From an uncultured Gemmiger sp. (GTDB lineage Bacteria > Bacillota > Clostridia > Oscillospirales > Ruminococcaceae), in the NCBI GenBank assembly GCA_944382785.1, contig CALWNO010000019.1, positions 1-46,668 of the forward strand: a DNA stretch of 46,668 nucleotides. The letters run 5' to 3'. Shown here piece by piece: positions 19,991-27,803 of this stretch; within the stretch, counting starts at the first letter, position 1, and each line of letters begins with the position of its first letter. A model generated the notes under the pieces. That model made no database searches. It saw nothing but the letters and a program-made list of their open reading frames with translations, and was not told where the DNA came from. The position numbers and the translations under genes are program-made.

Positions 19991-20022
19991 CAAGGCCGGA
20001 AGGAATGTTCCTTCCGGCCTTG
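19991..20022. terminator. Strong hairpin between convergent MATE gene and fba
   Basis: Arms CAAGGCCGGAAGGAA and TTCCTTCCGGCCTTG pair perfectly around a 2-base centre. A T-rich run (GTTTTCTTC) follows on the - strand only, so it may back up the fba terminator; on + it would end the MATE transcript without a clear U-run. Confidence 0.7.
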
Positions 20023-20028
20023 CCGCAT

Positions 20029-20066
20029 AAAAAGGAGCGGGCCCGCCGCTGGGACGGACCCGCTCC
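20029..20066 (-). terminator. Rho-independent terminator of fba
   Basis: Read on the - strand, GGAGCGGG pairs with CCCGCTCC around a GC-rich loop and is followed by TTTTT. It is 25 bp past the fba stop. Confidence 0.8.
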
Positions 20067-20091
20067 GAATATTTGGGGGTACAGGGAAAAA

Positions 20092-20955
20092 TCAGGCCTT
20101 GTTGGCAGAGCCGAACAGCTCGATCTTCTCGCGCACGGTGGCCTTGATGGCCTCGGCGCCGGGAGCCAGCAGCTTGCGGGGGTCGAAGCCCTTGCCCTGC
20201 AGATCCTTGCCCGCTTCGATGTACTTGCGGGTGGCATCGGCAAAGCTCAGCTGGCATTCGGTGTTGACGTTGATCTTGGAAACGCCCAGGGTGATGGCCT
20301 TGCGGATCATGTCGGCCGGGATGCCCGTGCCGCCGTGCAGGACCAGAGGAATGTTATCGGTGGCCTGATGGATCTTGTCCAGAGCCTCGAAGTCCAGGCC
20401 CTTCCAGTTGGCGGGATACTTGCCGTGGATGTTGCCGATGCCGGCAGCCAGGAAGTCGATGCCCAGGGCAGCGATCTTGGCGCACTCAGCGGGATCGGCC
20501 ACTTCGCCGGCGCCGATGACGCCGTCTTCCTCGCCGCCGATGGAGCCGACCTCGGCCTCGATGGACAGGCCGTGGTCATGAGCCAGAGCCACCAGCTCGG
20601 TGGTCTTGGCAACGTTCTCGTCGATGGGATAATGGCTGCCGTCGAACATGATGGAGGTGAAGCCGGCGGCCACGCAGGCCTTGGCGCCCTCGTAGGTGCC
20701 GTGGTCCAGGTGCAGGGCCACAGGCACGGTGATGCCCAGGCTTTCATCCATGGCACGGACCATGGCGGCCACGGTCTTGAAACCGGTCATATACTTGCCG
20801 GCGCCCTCGGAAACGCCGAGGATGACGGGGCTGTTCATCTCCTGCGCAGTCAGCAGGATGCTCTTGGTCCATTCCAGGTTGTTGATGTTGAACTGACCGA
20901 CGGCGTAATGACCGTCACGTGCTTTCAGCAGCATATTGGTTGCGTTTACCAGCAT
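20092..20955 (-). CDS. fba: Class II fructose-1,6-bisphosphate aldolase
   Basis: Zinc-dependent aldolase of glycolysis and gluconeogenesis that splits fructose 1,6-bisphosphate into dihydroxyacetone phosphate and glyceraldehyde 3-phosphate. The 287-residue product begins MLVNATNMLLKARDGHYAVG. Zinc ligands are visible: H85 in HLDHGTYEG, H177 in GNIHGKY and H207 in VLHGGTGIP. EAEVGSIGGEEDG and KINVNTE complete the active site. Length and motifs fit the class IIA/B FbaA-GatY family; tagatose or ketose-bisphosphate specificity cannot be excluded. Start is ATG with GGGAGG upstream on the - strand. Monocistronic, with its own promoter and terminator. Confidence 0.94.
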   Translation of the reverse strand: MLVNATNMLLKARDGHYAVGQFNINNLEWTKSILLTAQEMNSPVILGVSEGAGKYMTGFKTVAAMVRAMDESLGITVPVALHLDHGTYEGAKACVAAGFTSIMFDGSHYPIDENVAKTTELVALAHDHGLSIEAEVGSIGGEEDGVIGAGEVADPAECAKIAALGIDFLAAGIGNIHGKYPANWKGLDFEALDKIHQATDNIPLVLHGGTGIPADMIRKAITLGVSKINVNTECQLSFADATRKYIEAGKDLQGKGFDPRKLLAPGAEAIKATVREKIELFGSANKA

Positions 20956-21046
20956 AGTGAAGATACCTCCCAATGTTCTTCTGTTTCCGTTGCAGGAAAA
21001 ACCCGCGCGGAGCCGTGCGCCCCACGCGTAACCAGGGTATAGCTTC

Positions 21047-21075
21047 ATTATAGCCTGACATTGACAAAAAAGCAA
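21047..21075 (-). promoter_or_regulatory. Probable fba promoter
   Basis: On the - strand a perfect TATAAT (21047-21052) lies 17 bp from a weak -35, TTGCTT (21070-21075). It is 92 bp upstream of the fba start codon, giving an mRNA leader of about 80-90 nt. Confidence 0.6.
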
Positions 21076-21371
21076 CAAAAATATTTTCTCCATCGGGAAA
21101 AGCTGATTTTTGTCGATAAAAAGTAAAAATATACTGTCGTGACCACCTGCTGCAGGCAGATGTTGCGCCCAGAAAAACGCTCTGACACCCACGCTGGAAC
21201 GTCAAAAAAATCTTCCCTGTCAAAAGGTTGTGCGGGCATGACGGGGCCGGTATGAACTTTTCACCCGAAGGGGCGGGACAAAAAGAGCGTTTGGAAATCC
21301 TTGGGCATTTTGTGCGAAATTTCAGGGCAATTGGCAGTAAAATCAGAAGTTTGCCAACTTGACACGAGGGT

Positions 21372-21592: not shown

Positions 21593-21622
21593 GTGACAAA
21601 GGCTCCCGGTTTGTGGTATACT
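21593..21622 (+). promoter_or_regulatory. Probable rlmB promoter
   Basis: GTGACA (one mismatch to TTGACA), 18-bp spacer, TATACT; an overlapping TATAAT follows at 21622-21627. It lies 90 bp before the rlmB start. Confidence 0.55.
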
Positions 21623-21711
21623 ATAATCCGTATATTTATCGCCGGGCGCAGGAGCCCGGCGGCACAGAATTTTCACGGGGCCGGCACCGCCGCCCCGCCG
21701 GAGGAACCAGA

Positions 21712-22503
21712 ATGAACAAACCGGAACGCCCGGATACCCGGACCCCCCAGTCCGAAGCCCCCGATACCCTTGTATGGGGCAAGAATCCCGTCACCGAACT
21801 GCTGCGCGCCGGCAAAGGGGTGGACACCCTGCTGCTGGCCGACAGCCTGGACCCGCGTACGGTGTCCTATTTCACCGCCCTGGGCAAGCAGGCGGGGGCC
21901 GTCATCAAGCGGGTGCCCTCGGGCAAGCTGCAGAAACTTTGCGGCACCCCTGACCACCAGGGCATCGCGGCCTGGGCCGCCCGCATCCAGTATGCGGAGC
22001 TGGAGGATCTTTTGAATATCGCTGCCGAAAAGGGAGAACCGCCTTTCCTGGTGCTGTGCGACGGCATCGAGGACCCCCACAACCTGGGCGCCATCCTGCG
22101 CTCGGCCCTGCTGTGCGGGGCCCACGGGGTGATCATTCCCCGCCGGGGCAGCGTGAGCGTCACCGGTACGGTGATGAAGTCCAGCGCCGGTGCAGCAGCC
22201 CGCATCCCGGTGGCCCGGGTGGCCAATCTGGCCCAGGCCATCCGCACCTTGAAGGAGCGGGGCGTCTTTGTCTACTGTGCCGACCTGGGGGGCGAATCCC
22301 CCGCCCGCACCGACCTGACCGGTTCGGTGGGGCTGGTTCTGGGCAGTGAAGGCAGCGGCCCCTCGGCTCTGACTCGAAAATTGTGTGACGGTGTCGTCAC
22401 ATTGGATATGGCCGCCGAAGACTGCGGCGTGGACAGCTACAATGTGTCGGTGGCTGCCGGAATCCTTTTGTATCACATTATGCAGTGCCGTCGCGGGCAC
22501 TGA
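21712..22503 (+). CDS. rlmB: 23S rRNA (guanosine-2'-O-)-methyltransferase, SpoU/RlmB family
   Basis: SPOUT-class enzyme that 2'-O-methylates a guanosine in 23S rRNA using S-adenosylmethionine. The 263-residue protein has an N-terminal substrate-binding domain (LVWGKNPVTELLRAG) and the three SpoU motifs: DPHNLGAILRSA, LVLGSEGSGPS, and NVSVAAGILLY at the C-terminus, which form the SAM-binding knot. Start is ATG with GGAGGAA; the earlier in-frame start at 21613 lies upstream of the -10 box. RlmB and the YacO branch cannot be separated by eye. Confidence 0.88.
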   Translation: MNKPERPDTRTPQSEAPDTLVWGKNPVTELLRAGKGVDTLLLADSLDPRTVSYFTALGKQAGAVIKRVPSGKLQKLCGTPDHQGIAAWAARIQYAELEDLLNIAAEKGEPPFLVLCDGIEDPHNLGAILRSALLCGAHGVIIPRRGSVSVTGTVMKSSAGAAARIPVARVANLAQAIRTLKERGVFVYCADLGGESPARTDLTGSVGLVLGSEGSGPSALTRKLCDGVVTLDMAAEDCGVDSYNVSVAAGILLYHIMQCRRGH

Positions 22504-22557: not shown

Positions 22558-25500
22558 ATGCCAAGCAAACGCACCAATGATTCGGTGGAACAGATCCTGC
22601 AGGAGCTGAGTCATCAGCAGGCCCGGGATGGTGTGCGTGACAGTGTGAATGAAAGAAAAGTGGACGAGATCCTCAAAAGTGTGGGCATCGACACGGACGT
22701 TCCCGGGGCTTCCCAGGACTCGCTGGGGCCCATCGGCAGGGAGGACATGCCCCAGGTGGAGATCAGCGGCGGCGTGGCCGAGGACCGGTTTTCCACCACC
22801 GTGCTGGATGATTTGCTGGGGGACCTGCCCAGCATGAAACTGCTGAAAAAGCGCTCCCAGGGAACCTCCCGGCCCAAGTCTGCCGCTCCTGCGGGGGGAC
22901 GCACGGCCCCGGCCTCCACGCCGGTGCGCGGCGGCCGCCAGGCCACAGCCAAAGCGGCTTCCGGCGGGGCAGCACCCGTACAGCGCACGCAGCCCGCAGA
23001 ACCGCAGACACCGCAGCAGCCGGAAGAAGAGGTTTCGGCTGCGCCCCGGCAGAGCCGCCGCCCGCAGTCCGATTCCGGCCGGGCGCAGCCTTCTCCTGCC
23101 GCGGCCCGGACCCGGCAGCCGGCAGGCAATACCCCGGCCTCCCCGTCGACCCCGGAACCGCAGCCGACCCGCAAAGCGGAGCCCCGGCAGCCCCAGAGAG
23201 GGGAAGGTGAAGGGGGCAACATTACAAAGGACACCACCAACACCAGCGTCATCAAGGATTTCCTCCGCAAGATGGCGCCGGGCTCCGACCATGCCAGCAC
23301 CCATGTGCTGAACCAGGGCAAGGAGCAGTTCCAGCAGTTTTTCGGCAAATCGGCCGCAGTGGTCCCCGGCGCGGACGGCAAGCTCCGTGACCCCTCCCGC
23401 CACAAGCGTGGGCTGTTCGGGTTGGGCCGGGCTGAGGAGACCGGCCAGTTTGTGCCTATCAACGTCTCCCTGGGCGGGCGTCGGGAAGAACCTGCCCCTG
23501 AGCCGGACCCGGAACCGGAAGAGGAACCTTCCGCGGAGCCGCAGACCCTGCCGGAAGAAACGTACATCGACGACGCCGACGAGGTGGATGACGGGGAGGC
23601 TGTGACCACACCCGAACCGGCACCCGCCGTGAACCCAGAACCCCAGGCTCCGGCCCGGACGGCACAGACCCCGGGCAAGAAAACGGTGTATCATTCCCAC
23701 CATGAAACAACGGCACCGGCTTCCCGCCATATGGGACTGGGCGGCAACACGGTGAGCGTCACCTTCAACGGCATCAAGGAAGTGCTGCGCGGCGGTTCTT
23801 CCTCCGGCGCCACCGGCACCGTCTACCGCAAAAAGCGCAACACCATTGAGTTCACCCCCGGCCAGAAGCTGGCCCGCACGCCTGAAACCCCGACTCCGGA
23901 GGAAAACCGGGGCGAACCGGTGGGCGAACCGGTCATGACCTCCACCATGGATGTGGTGCCCACCGCCACCGCCGGGTTCAATGTCTCTCTGGACCGCGGC
24001 GAGGAAGCAGAGGACACCAAGGACTTCCTCCGGGATCTGGAAGCGGCGTCGGAGTCTGCGGCCAAGCTGGCAGCACGGGCGTCCCGGGCGGCCCCCCGGC
24101 CTCAGCCGGAAGCGCAGCCGCGGACCACCCGCTCTCAGCCTGCGGCCGAAACAAAACCCGCCGCAACACAGCCGGCCGTGACCCGGCCGGAACCGGAGCA
24201 GTCGCAGACTGCTTCCGCACGGGAGGATACCTTTGAGGAGATCTCCCGGGATGAAGCGGTCTCCATGACCGGTGAGGTGCGCCTGGCCGATATTGCGGCC
24301 GGCCGTACCGAAGCCCAGGAAAACACCGACGACTTTGCGGCGGATCTGGCCCACGCGGGCACCCATGAAGTCAGCCCGGATACGGCGGACTTCATGGCCC
24401 AGCTGGACGCCCAGCCCCGGCCGCGTCCGGACACCGGTGCCTTTGTGAAGGGCATCGAGCAGTCCATCAACGAGGAGGAGGACGGCTCTGCCGTACCCGA
24501 CGACCGTTTTGTACAGGCCGCCGGCATCCTCACCGATACCTCCGAAACAGACGAACCCACCGCCCGCCACACCAAGGCCGGGATCCGGCTGACCGGCAGG
24601 GCGGAGGACGAGAGTCCCGACGGAGAAAAGGCGGAGGCTCCCTTTGAGGAGGAGACGGCCGCTCCCTCCCGCCGCCGGGAATATGAACACGCGGAAGATG
24701 CCCCGGCAGTGCGCCGGGACCTGAACAACCAGATCCTGCTGCTGACCACCGCTGCCATCGTATCCGGCGCCGCCGCCCTGGTCATGCTGTATCTGGGGGT
24801 GGCGGCTGTGGGCGGACTGCCCATGCCCGGCGCCCTGAATCCCCAGGCCGGGGCCACGCCCCTGCTGGCCACCATGCTGGTTCTGCTGCTGTTCTGCTGC
24901 GGGCTGAACTGGCATACCATGCTGGATGGGCTCAAGGGCCTGGTCAAAGGCCCCACCGCCGATACCCTGCCCGCCCTGGCGGCCCTGGGCTCGGCGGTGC
25001 AGCTGCTGGTCTTTCTGATCCAGCCGGACTGGTACAATCCCGAAAAACTCTGCCTGCTGGCCGGGCCTGCGGCGCTGGTGCTCTGCTTCAACGCGCTGGG
25101 CAAACGGCTGGATGCTCTCACCACGCGGGAAAACTTCCAGCTGGTCAGTGCCAAGGTGGACCATGCAGTGGCCTATCGCCTGAAAGATACCGGGATTCTC
25201 CGGGCTGTCACCCGCGGTCTGGACCAGCCCCGTCCCAGCGTACTGGTCAGCCGCCCCACCCTGCTGATGAAGGACTTCCTGGCCTCCAGCAGCGCCCACC
25301 GCACTTCGGACAAAAACCAGCAGCAGCTGGGCCGTCTGGTGGGCGGCGTGGCTGTGGCGGCGCTGCTCTTCACCCTGTTGTACCGTCAGGACGCCGGTCT
25401 GGCCTTCACCGCCATGGCGGCGGTGCTCTGCCTGGGAGCGCCCCTGGCGGGTACCCTGCTCAGCGCCCTGCCTGCCCGTCTGATGCAGCGCAGCGCCGCT

Positions 25501-26400
25501 CAGGTGGGGGCGGTCATCCCGGGCTGGCGGGATATCCGGCAGCTTGGCCGCATCAATGTCATCCAGGTTTCCACCCAGGACCTGTTCCCCAAGGGCTGCG
25601 TCAAACTCTGCGGCATCAAGCCGGTGAATAAGGAAACCATTGATCTGGCCATTATCTATGCGGCCTCCATGATGGCGCAGGGCGCCCCCACCCTGCGGGA
25701 TGTGTTCCTGGGCATGATCGGGGACAACCGCAAGCTGCTGGACAAGGTGGACGACTTCGAGACGGTGTACGGCATGGGCTATGTAGGCTGGATAAAAGGA
25801 CAGCGGGTGCTGGCCGGCAACCGCCGCCTGATGGAAAAGTTCGACGTGGCGGTGCCCAGCCTGGAATATGAAAAGCGCCACACCGTGAACCAGCGCCGGG
25901 TCATCTACCTGGCGGTGTCCGGCAAGCTGTACAGCATGTTCCAGGTGGTGTATCAGGCGGAGTCTGATACCGCCGCCGTCCTGGACGGTCTGCGCCGCAG
26001 CGGCATGTCCCTGATTGTGGACTGTGACGACTTCAACTGTGACGAAGCCCTGCTGGAAGCCGCCTACACCCTGCCCACCGGCACGGTGCGGGTGCTGGAT
26101 GCCACGGCCCGCAAAGCCCTGGAACCGGCCATTGCCTGGCTGCCCGAAAGCGAGGGCAACATGCTGCATCTGGGCAGCTTCGTGAGCTATGTAGGCGGCC
26201 TGGAAGCCGCCGCCGGCGCCGCCGAAGGGGAACGCAAGGCCGCCATGATCCTGTCGGTATCGGTGCTGCTGTCCTGTGTGCTGGCCGTCATCATGGTGCT
26301 GGCCGGTGGCATTGCGGCGCTGCCGCTGCCCGCCCTGGTGCTGTATCAGGCTGCCTGGGCCGTGCTGGCGCTGATCTTCCCGCTGCTGCAGCGGTATTAA
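22558..26400 (+). CDS. Membrane protein: long disordered N-terminus fused to a degenerate P1B-type ATPase
   Basis: 1280 residues. Residues 1-720 are low-complexity, rich in Pro, Arg, Gln, Glu and Ala, with a few short ordered patches (1-100, 225-262, 390-435). The rest has eight hydrophobic helices (about 725-747, 768-786, 803-822, 829-848, 926-943, 947-970, 1227-1250, 1255-1277) in the 4+2+2 arrangement of heavy-metal P1B ATPases. ADTLPALAALGSA resembles the region before P1B helix M2, and GQRVLAGNRRLMEK resembles the nucleotide-domain GxxVxxGNxxLM motif. The phosphorylation motif DKTGT is replaced by STQDL (S1005 at the Asp position), the CPx motif by CLGAPLAG, TGD by DCDD, and no TGE or GDGxND is present. 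It should neither pump nor hydrolyse ATP; a scaffold or sensor role is inference. Confidence 0.72.
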   Translation: MPSKRTNDSVEQILQELSHQQARDGVRDSVNERKVDEILKSVGIDTDVPGASQDSLGPIGREDMPQVEISGGVAEDRFSTTVLDDLLGDLPSMKLLKKRSQGTSRPKSAAPAGGRTAPASTPVRGGRQATAKAASGGAAPVQRTQPAEPQTPQQPEEEVSAAPRQSRRPQSDSGRAQPSPAAARTRQPAGNTPASPSTPEPQPTRKAEPRQPQRGEGEGGNITKDTTNTSVIKDFLRKMAPGSDHASTHVLNQGKEQFQQFFGKSAAVVPGADGKLRDPSRHKRGLFGLGRAEETGQFVPINVSLGGRREEPAPEPDPEPEEEPSAEPQTLPEETYIDDADEVDDGEAVTTPEPAPAVNPEPQAPARTAQTPGKKTVYHSHHETTAPASRHMGLGGNTVSVTFNGIKEVLRGGSSSGATGTVYRKKRNTIEFTPGQKLARTPETPTPEENRGEPVGEPVMTSTMDVVPTATAGFNVSLDRGEEAEDTKDFLRDLEAASESAAKLAARASRAAPRPQPEAQPRTTRSQPAAETKPAATQPAVTRPEPEQSQTASAREDTFEEISRDEAVSMTGEVRLADIAAGRTEAQENTDDFAADLAHAGTHEVSPDTADFMAQLDAQPRPRPDTGAFVKGIEQSINEEEDGSAVPDDRFVQAAGILTDTSETDEPTARHTKAGIRLTGRAEDESPDGEKAEAPFEEETAAPSRRREYEHAEDAPAVRRDLNNQILLLTTAAIVSGAAALVMLYLGVAAVGGLPMPGALNPQAGATPLLATMLVLLLFCCGLNWHTMLDGLKGLVKGPTADTLPALAALGSAVQLLVFLIQPDWYNPEKLCLLAGPAALVLCFNALGKRLDALTTRENFQLVSAKVDHAVAYRLKDTGILRAVTRGLDQPRPSVLVSRPTLLMKDFLASSSAHRTSDKNQQQLGRLVGGVAVAALLFTLLYRQDAGLAFTAMAAVLCLGAPLAGTLLSALPARLMQRSAAQVGAVIPGWRDIRQLGRINVIQVSTQDLFPKGCVKLCGIKPVNKETIDLAIIYAASMMAQGAPTLRDVFLGMIGDNRKLLDKVDDFETVYGMGYVGWIKGQRVLAGNRRLMEKFDVAVPSLEYEKRHTVNQRRVIYLAVSGKLYSMFQVVYQAESDTAAVLDGLRRSGMSLIVDCDDFNCDEALLEAAYTLPTGTVRVLDATARKALEPAIAWLPESEGNMLHLGSFVSYVGGLEAAAGAAEGERKAAMILSVSVLLSCVLAVIMVLAGGIAALPLPALVLYQAAWAVLALIFPLLQRY

Positions 26401-26421: not shown

Positions 26422-26826
26422 TTGTACCGCACAAGCGAACAGCAGATGAGCATTTACGATTATCTGCCGCCTTACCACGGGGAACTGGCCGAGCGCAACC
26501 GCTGGGTCCGCCTGGCCGATGCCATTGACTGGGATGCCTTTGAAAAAGAATACAGTGGTCATTTCGGCCATGTGGGCAAGGTGGCGGTCCCCGCCCGGGT
26601 GGCCTACGGCTGCCTGATCATCCGGGCTGCCTGCGGCGTGTCCGACCGGGAGACGGTGGCCCTGATCCGGGAAAGCCCCTATCTGCAATACTTTCTGGGG
26701 TTTGACGCTTTCACCGACACGGTGCCCTTCTCCTCCCGCAGTATGGAACGCTTCCGCACCCGCATTCCGGAGGACAAGGTCCGGGCGGCGGTGCGGCTGC
26801 TGCGCCGGTTTGAAGCCGAAGACTGA
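26422..26826 (+). CDS. Free-standing transposase N-terminal (DUF772/InsH-type) domain protein
   Basis: 134 residues that match only the N-terminal DNA-binding domain of IS1182/IS5-type transposases: MSIYDYLPPYHGEL, NRWVRLADAIDWDAFEKEY, ARVAYGCLIIRAACGVSDRETV, ESPYLQYFLGFDAF and the RFRTRI helix. A full transposase is about 400-500 aa with a DDE catalytic domain, which is missing here. The TTG start has GGAGG 8 nt upstream, the frame ends cleanly and a terminator follows; no remnant of the catalytic part or inverted repeats were seen. It begins 21 bp after the preceding gene, with similar codon use, so domestication as a DNA-binding protein is plausible; a simple truncated relic is the alternative. 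Confidence 0.75.
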   Translation: MYRTSEQQMSIYDYLPPYHGELAERNRWVRLADAIDWDAFEKEYSGHFGHVGKVAVPARVAYGCLIIRAACGVSDRETVALIRESPYLQYFLGFDAFTDTVPFSSRSMERFRTRIPEDKVRAAVRLLRRFEAED

Positions 26827-26933: not shown

Positions 26934-27803
26934 ATGGAACACATCATTCTGCACACCATCGAACATGCTCTGGAGGACAGCGTCAAGATGCTGCCCTTCC
27001 TGTTCCTGGCGTATCTGCTCATCGAATGGCTGGAACGCCACCACGGTGAGCGCATCGAAAACGCCCTGGCCGGGGGCGGGCGCTGGGGCTTTGTGCCCGG
27101 CGCCCTGCTGGGCTGCGTGCCCCAGTGCGGGTTCTCCGCCCTGGCCGCCAACCTGTATGCCAGCCGGGTCATCACCCCCGGGGCACTGCTGGCCGTCTTT
27201 GTGGCCACCAGCGATGAGGCCGTGCCCCTGCTGGCCGCCGAGCCCAGCCTGTGGGGCACCCTGCCCCTGCTGCTCATCGGCAAGGTGATCGCCGGTGTGG
27301 CGGGGGGCTTCCTGTTGGATGTGCCCCTGCGCAGGGTGCTGCCTGCCGGTTTGTACGGCGGCTATGCCGGCCATGCCGATGACATCGACTGCCATGAGGA
27401 GCACGAGGAACACAGCGGTGTCCTGCTGGCGGCCCTGCGCCACACGGTGGAGATCTTCCTCTTCATCCTGCTGTTCAGCTTCCTCATTGGTTTTGCCTTC
27501 GAGCTCATCGGGGAGGACACCATCACCGCCTTCCTCACCGGCATGGGCATCTTCCAGCCCATGGCGGCGGCCCTGGTGGGTCTGGTGCCCAACTGCGCCG
27601 CCAGTGTGCTGCTGGCCCAGCTCTACGCCCAGGGGGCCATCAGCTTCGGCAGCCTGTTCGCCGGGCTCTGCGCCGGGGCGGGCATCGGCCTGGCCGTGCT
27701 CTGGCGGGTCAACCCCAGCTGGAAGCAGAACCTGTTCATGACCGGCATTCTGTGGGGCGGTGGCTCTCTGTGCGGCATCGTGCTGCAGTTCCTGCCCCTG
27801 TAA
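26934..27803 (+). CDS. Putative metal exporter permease (ArsP_2 / putative manganese transporter family)
   Basis: 289-residue membrane protein with about eight to ten helices in two homologous halves. Each half carries a Cys-containing turn: CVPQCGFS (61-68) and LVPNCAAS (217-224). The central cytoplasmic loop is rich in possible metal ligands (GHADDIDCHEEHEEH, 146-160). This pattern fits the '10TM heavy-metal exporter' (ArsP_2) family annotated as arsenic efflux or manganese transport protein. Substrate cannot be decided from sequence; no manganese riboswitch was recognised upstream. Start ATG with AAAGGA. A terminator-like hairpin separates it from the convergent peptidase gene. Confidence 0.8.
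   Translation: MEHIILHTIEHALEDSVKMLPFLFLAYLLIEWLERHHGERIENALAGGGRWGFVPGALLGCVPQCGFSALAANLYASRVITPGALLAVFVATSDEAVPLLAAEPSLWGTLPLLLIGKVIAGVAGGFLLDVPLRRVLPAGLYGGYAGHADDIDCHEEHEEHSGVLLAALRHTVEIFLFILLFSFLIGFAFELIGEDTITAFLTGMGIFQPMAAALVGLVPNCAASVLLAQLYAQGAISFGSLFAGLCAGAGIGLAVLWRVNPSWKQNLFMTGILWGGGSLCGIVLQFLPL

Follow-up and report, generated by a model that had tools for sequence, protein, structure and literature searches.

A conserved group of P1B-type pseudo-ATPases encoded behind rlmB across a bacterial order

Pseudoenzymes are well known among kinases and proteases. In a literature search, we found no conserved, order-wide pseudoenzyme of the P-type ATPases. A degenerate plant P-type ATPase gene has been described as unlikely to encode an ATPase, its TGES, DKTGT, TGDN, and GDGTND segments being either changed or absent (note 12, PMC3355532). 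The case described in that note is a single gene, whereas the pseudo-P1B group that we report here is a clade kept across an order. When compared with the P1B copper ATPases (CopA; Legionella 3rfu and 4bbj, and the Archaeoglobus CopA domains), the proteins of this group lack DKTGT, TGES, GDGxND, CPC, and SEHP, retain only a remnant of ~43 residues of the actuator region, and carry a tail that is variable in length and bears short motifs.

The window, by which we mean the whole stretch of 46,668 nucleotides that was analysed, is one contig of a 2.68 Mb assembly in 111 contigs. Its best segment is 94% identical to an uncultured Gemmiger MAG, and its closest named relatives are Gemmiger, whose family in the NCBI taxonomy is Oscillospiraceae. 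Below, “order” and “family”, where taxonomic, are the ranks used by our genome search, and we take the order to be the one that GTDB names Oscillospirales. The gene under study (22558..26400, +) encodes a P1B-type pseudo-ATPase of 1280 aa with a cytosolic tail, which has the strong profile match, the loss of motifs, and the position behind rlmB by which we recognise members of the group.

Pfam, NCBIfam, and PHROGs gave no family name to the tail or to the whole window protein, which fell below every NCBIfam cut-off. A Pfam match to Trypan_PARP (0.0042, 17.5 bits, cut-off 100) was dropped as low-complexity. The P1B ancestry is nevertheless recognisable, because the heavy-metal ATPase model of NCBIfam recovers 32 of 43 diverse members of the group at E <= 0.001. 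Weak Pfam matches among the 43 were to Hydrolase in four members (best 4.4e-5) and to DUF6750, E1-E2_ATPase, and MerC in one each. A sequence-only reading of the window had proposed a possible new family. This holds insofar as the protein belongs to no Pfam family and scores under the cut-off of every NCBIfam model, but it must be qualified by the heavy-metal ATPase ancestry of the group.

Fold, lost motifs, and origin

Structure prediction and structure comparison, in which the fold assignment rests on the best 50 matches listed per search, indicate that the window protein has an eight-helix P1B fold with soluble P and N domains. The first four membrane helices (residues 724-849; 24727..25104, +) include G791, which is invariant in profile A1 and at least 90% conserved in profile A3. 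They are followed by a remnant at the position of the actuator domain (residues 869-911; 25162..25290, +), from which the TGES segment is deleted, and by helices five and six (residues 923-973; 25324..25476, +), which have APL in the CPC column. The nucleotide-binding-domain fold comprises residues ~1013-1133 (25594..25956, +), and the final two helices comprise residues 1226-1278 (26233..26391, +). Between these lies D1158 (26029..26031, +), which aligns to the Asp of the TGD motif and is likewise invariant in A1 and at least 90% conserved in A3.

We constructed a joint alignment of 57 rows from the taxonomic family, 24 rows from other families of the order, and 26 true pumps. The pumps keep DKTGT, TGES, GDGxND, CPC, and SEHP; the order rows are without them, and none of the 81 aligned order rows has DKTGT at its place. 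In the window protein that position is occupied by STQDLFP (residues 1005-1011 by alignment; 25570..25590, +), with S1005 in the Asp column. The position has its own approximate consensus, [DST][AD]x[DE]LFP, in which F is present in 96% of the 57 family rows and 88% of the 24 others, and the P that follows in 89% and 83%. Gaps are found at TGES in 57/57 family rows and in 92-100% of the 24 other-family rows, and at GDGxND in 57/57 and 24/24 rows. The CPx metal site is lost as well, in that its Pro is kept in 88% (family) and 79% (other families) of rows and its flanking Cys are not, and neither order group retains a SEHP consensus.

Two claims of the sequence-only reading, a P-type fold and the disappearance of its catalytic motifs, are thus borne out: the predicted fold is that of the P1B ATPases rather than an unrelated one, and every member read has lost motifs. 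No orthologue read keeps DKTGT at its place, and so we found no sign of a mutation local to the window copy. Because the phospho-aspartate motif, TGES, and GDGxND are lost or deleted, the phosphorylation cycle of P-type pumping should not run. Alignment and predicted structure come close to demonstrating that pumping has been lost.

In a phylogenetic tree of 41 rows, the 15 pseudo-P1B members form one clade (100/100) on a long stem, apart from the copper-type and the small CPC-type pumps. Profile scores make CopA the favoured candidate for the parent subtype of this clade. A second P1B pseudoenzyme, P0001, was encountered at L182:3541-5385 (-), with NKTGT, SEAGHD, and YCGQAG and a start that reads DLDDILREY. 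P0001 resembles the pseudo-P1B group in that both are tailed and without the pump motifs, but in the tree it joins small CPC-type pumps of 570-743 aa (100/98) on a long branch and falls outside the pseudo-P1B clade. Because of this placement, P0001 is probably an independent case of a P1B pseudoenzyme. We rejected it as a second widespread family, since a whole-length match was present in just 1 of 98 order genomes.

Distribution across the order

With profile A1, a match at E 4.0e-42 or better was obtained in 183 of 197 order genomes, a count in which, as in those that follow, related rows are not independent events. Among the A1 matches listed, most span nearly the whole model and some are partial (e.g. 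positions 192-570). A single-sequence search of the family sample matched 196 of 197 genomes, which in some cases includes true pumps. Outside the order, the best match was 7.8e-32 in 143 class genomes (A1) and 8.3e-38 in 247 phylum genomes (A3). Those listed are partial, mostly covering positions 176-501, and all 25 class matches read carry DKTGT, one being a fragment without the other motifs.

The 27 poor cases (14 from the order and 13 from the family sample) were searched a second time with the wider profile A3. Full-length members without DKTGT were recovered in ten of them, five of which come from genomes of 0.7, 0.8, 0.8, 0.9, and 1.0 Mb. On this second search a full-length member was not found in the other 17 cases, where the 15 best matches read (all but those of G318 and G365) were 14 true pumps with DKTGT and one pump fragment. 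In one genome, G194, the beginning of the gene is present behind rlmB, at the end of a contig; G223 has an N-terminal piece only, and G125 keeps rlmB, with the pseudo-P1B gene absent from the 1.5 kb behind it. Five genomes with no full-length pseudoenzyme (G257, G323, G282, G295, and G365) are without a strong rlmB match too. They represent either a joint loss of rlmB and the pseudoenzyme or a shared assembly gap, which are indistinguishable here because the rlmB match is itself missing.

The N-terminal tail and its motifs

The tail of the window protein (residues 1-705; 22558..24672, +) is of low complexity and faster evolving. A huge tail had been described as part of this protein and is indeed present in it, but the feature is not general to the group, in which tail length ranges from ~0 to 750 residues, make-up varies too, and one family among those read (L110) is without a tail. 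Because of this range, and because recurrence is limited to short motifs, a huge tail does not define the family.

Near the start of the tail is VEQILQEL (residues 10-17; 22585..22608, +), the window's form of a DDILxE-like N-motif, which fits the loose pattern of this motif and not the strict one. A second motif-like copy, VDEILKSV, is found at residues 35-42 (22660..22683, +), and a second tail motif, FQQFF (F..FF), at residues 258-262 (23329..23343, +). The loose N-motif is present in 25/26 Gemmiger tails, 35/56 other family rows, and 13/22 other-family tails (and thus missing in 9/22), with shuffle means of 0.0-0.1. The corresponding counts are 0/26 (window included), 17/56, and 9/22 for the strict N-motif, and 26/26, 28/56, and 0/22 for F..FF; the set of 56 includes rows truncated by the edge of the locus, as well as two Gemmiger genomes already counted among the 26. 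On tails of ~120-150 residues, SVD[ED]IL.E is retained at the start in four reduced genomes (0.7-0.9 Mb), e.g. as KFSVDEILEEV.

A motif profile, A2 (31 members, 22 columns), was run over 98 order genomes. In 63 of them it had matches at E <= 1, mainly to the pseudo-P1B group, and in the other 35 nothing reached that threshold. Seventeen of the 20 matches below 1e-3 lie just before the pseudo-P1B gene on the same contig; the remaining three are two N-terminal pieces at contig ends (L155, L166) and one unrelated HTH-type frame (L183). The weaker matches that we read, namely those with fetched stretches other than group members, P0001, and VanW proteins, are almost entirely unrelated frames or chance matches at internal or C-terminal positions. 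The motif was rejected as a widespread code.

Besides the pseudo-P1B group, the motif stands at the start of P0001, in its DLDDILREY. A similar motif, [VL][DE]DILxE, starts membrane proteins of the VanW/PG_binding_4/G5 type in family f13 (L186:1132-3003 (-) and L188:1514-3541 (-), both domain-checked, and a third at L273). It is found on VanW proteins in 2 of 23 loci read, both from f13, and another f13 locus is without it. The sharing of the motif by so few proteins could reflect convergence of short acidic helices, and its presence on other proteins lends slender support to the idea that cytosolic tails carry a docking motif.

Neighbouring genes and possible roles

The constant upstream neighbour of the pseudo-P1B gene is rlmB, which encodes a 23S rRNA 2'-O-methyltransferase (21613..22503, + in the window). 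Of 64 family loci, 63 have it, in every case in the orientation of the pseudo-P1B gene and with a median gap of 35 bases; gaps exceed 400 bases in two loci (L087, 638; L076, 2671), and the sole family locus without rlmB, L039, starts inside the gene. It is also upstream in 20 of 20 loci picked as good matches from 19 other families. In 14 of 38 non-Gemmiger family loci, a gene of an EF-G-like cluster is found downstream of the pseudo-P1B gene and in its orientation, and the domain check, made on L067 alone, identified an EF-G-like GTPase gene at L067:7910-9979 (+). These neighbours could point to a translation-linked membrane protein that is coupled to rlmB and the GTPase. We regard this as unlikely, in that the neighbourhood is all that speaks for it and the EF-G-like gene is inconstant, being on the opposite strand in both Gemmiger loci that have it. 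Other neighbours in the window are a class II fructose-bisphosphate aldolase (20092-21192, -), of which a frame without a Pfam match (20005-21042, +) is probably an opposite-strand shadow, and, directly behind the gene, a 134-aa frame with a DUF772 transposase domain (26422-26826, +), whose cluster is confined to 26 Gemmiger loci. Beyond it is a protein that NCBIfam assigns to the 10TM heavy-metal (arsenic efflux) exporter family (26934-27803, +). The adjoining exporter, whose cluster occurs in 25/26 Gemmiger loci, and the kept membrane helices would suit a passive role with metals or other ions, as a channel or a subunit that perhaps acts with the exporter. However, the CPC metal site is lost and the exporter cluster is found in just 2/38 other family loci, which makes this reading quite improbable.

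The loss of motifs, and nothing else, would also be explained by a decaying pseudogene or an artefact. Against this, frames are open in nearly all rows listed (two listed A1 rows have one stop), invariant columns exist, the gene is kept in reduced genomes, and dN/dS is well below 1. In six pairs with the window, dN/dS was 0.08-0.37 for the C-terminal part, 0.09-0.33 for rlmB, and 0.25-0.48 for the tail, and four further pairs gave 0.09-0.19 for the C-terminus and 0.22-0.38 for the tail; the tail ratios are rough because synonymous change is high in tails. We therefore consider decay hardly credible, and the earlier proposal that selection maintains the gene is supported by the low dN/dS, the wide distribution, and the constant place behind rlmB. 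Of the two roles suggested by the sequence-only reading, a membrane scaffold or a ligand sensor, both of which are conjectural, the sensor, in which the N domain would bind nucleotide or something similar and the membrane part or tail would relay the signal, is a possibility that we entertain tentatively. The N domain is the best-fitting of all domains (2voy_J, rmsd 2.1 over 115 residues), and G1074 and G1087, which belong to the GxG and VxxGN motifs, do not vary in the 57 + 24 order rows, as in the 26 true pumps. Yet the SEHP consensus is gone, the first Gly of GxG, unlike the invariant second, is kept in only 79% of family rows and 38% of other-family rows, and the invariant glycines may be structural.

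The explanation that we favour, with confidence somewhat above even, is that the group consists of order-wide membrane pseudoenzymes of a single P1B origin. One heavy-metal ATPase ancestor would have given rise to the group. Sequence and model show that the nucleotide-domain fold and a membrane part of eight helices remain, and that the phospho-aspartate motif, TGES, and GDGxND are lost or deleted. The membrane part may now act as a platform, and the retained N domain may offer a surface, perhaps responsive to nucleotide, to which a ligand or a protein would bind. The cytosolic tail would recruit putative partners via short linear motifs, foremost the DDILxE-like N-motif, a docking role that we infer from anatomy. 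Even without its engine, such a pump could in principle serve as a passive path. A more ambitious version is doubtful: here the group would be an order-specific core membrane receptor or scaffold, derived from a dead copper pump and gathering cytosolic partners, its docking motif would have been acquired independently by other membrane proteins, and the N domain would make docking responsive to a nucleotide or another small ligand.

The retention of the gene at a genome size of 0.7-1.0 Mb makes it probable that the protein serves a core process, with envelope growth or division, or a translation-tied process, as candidates. The pumping parts are lost and the protein is still conserved, which suggests that this dead pump probably has a basic non-pumping role, so far undescribed. 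The pseudo-P1B gene is thus a candidate core gene, present in most genomes examined of a large order to which many gut bacteria belong, and the short motif in its tail gives a direct way to test for a partner.
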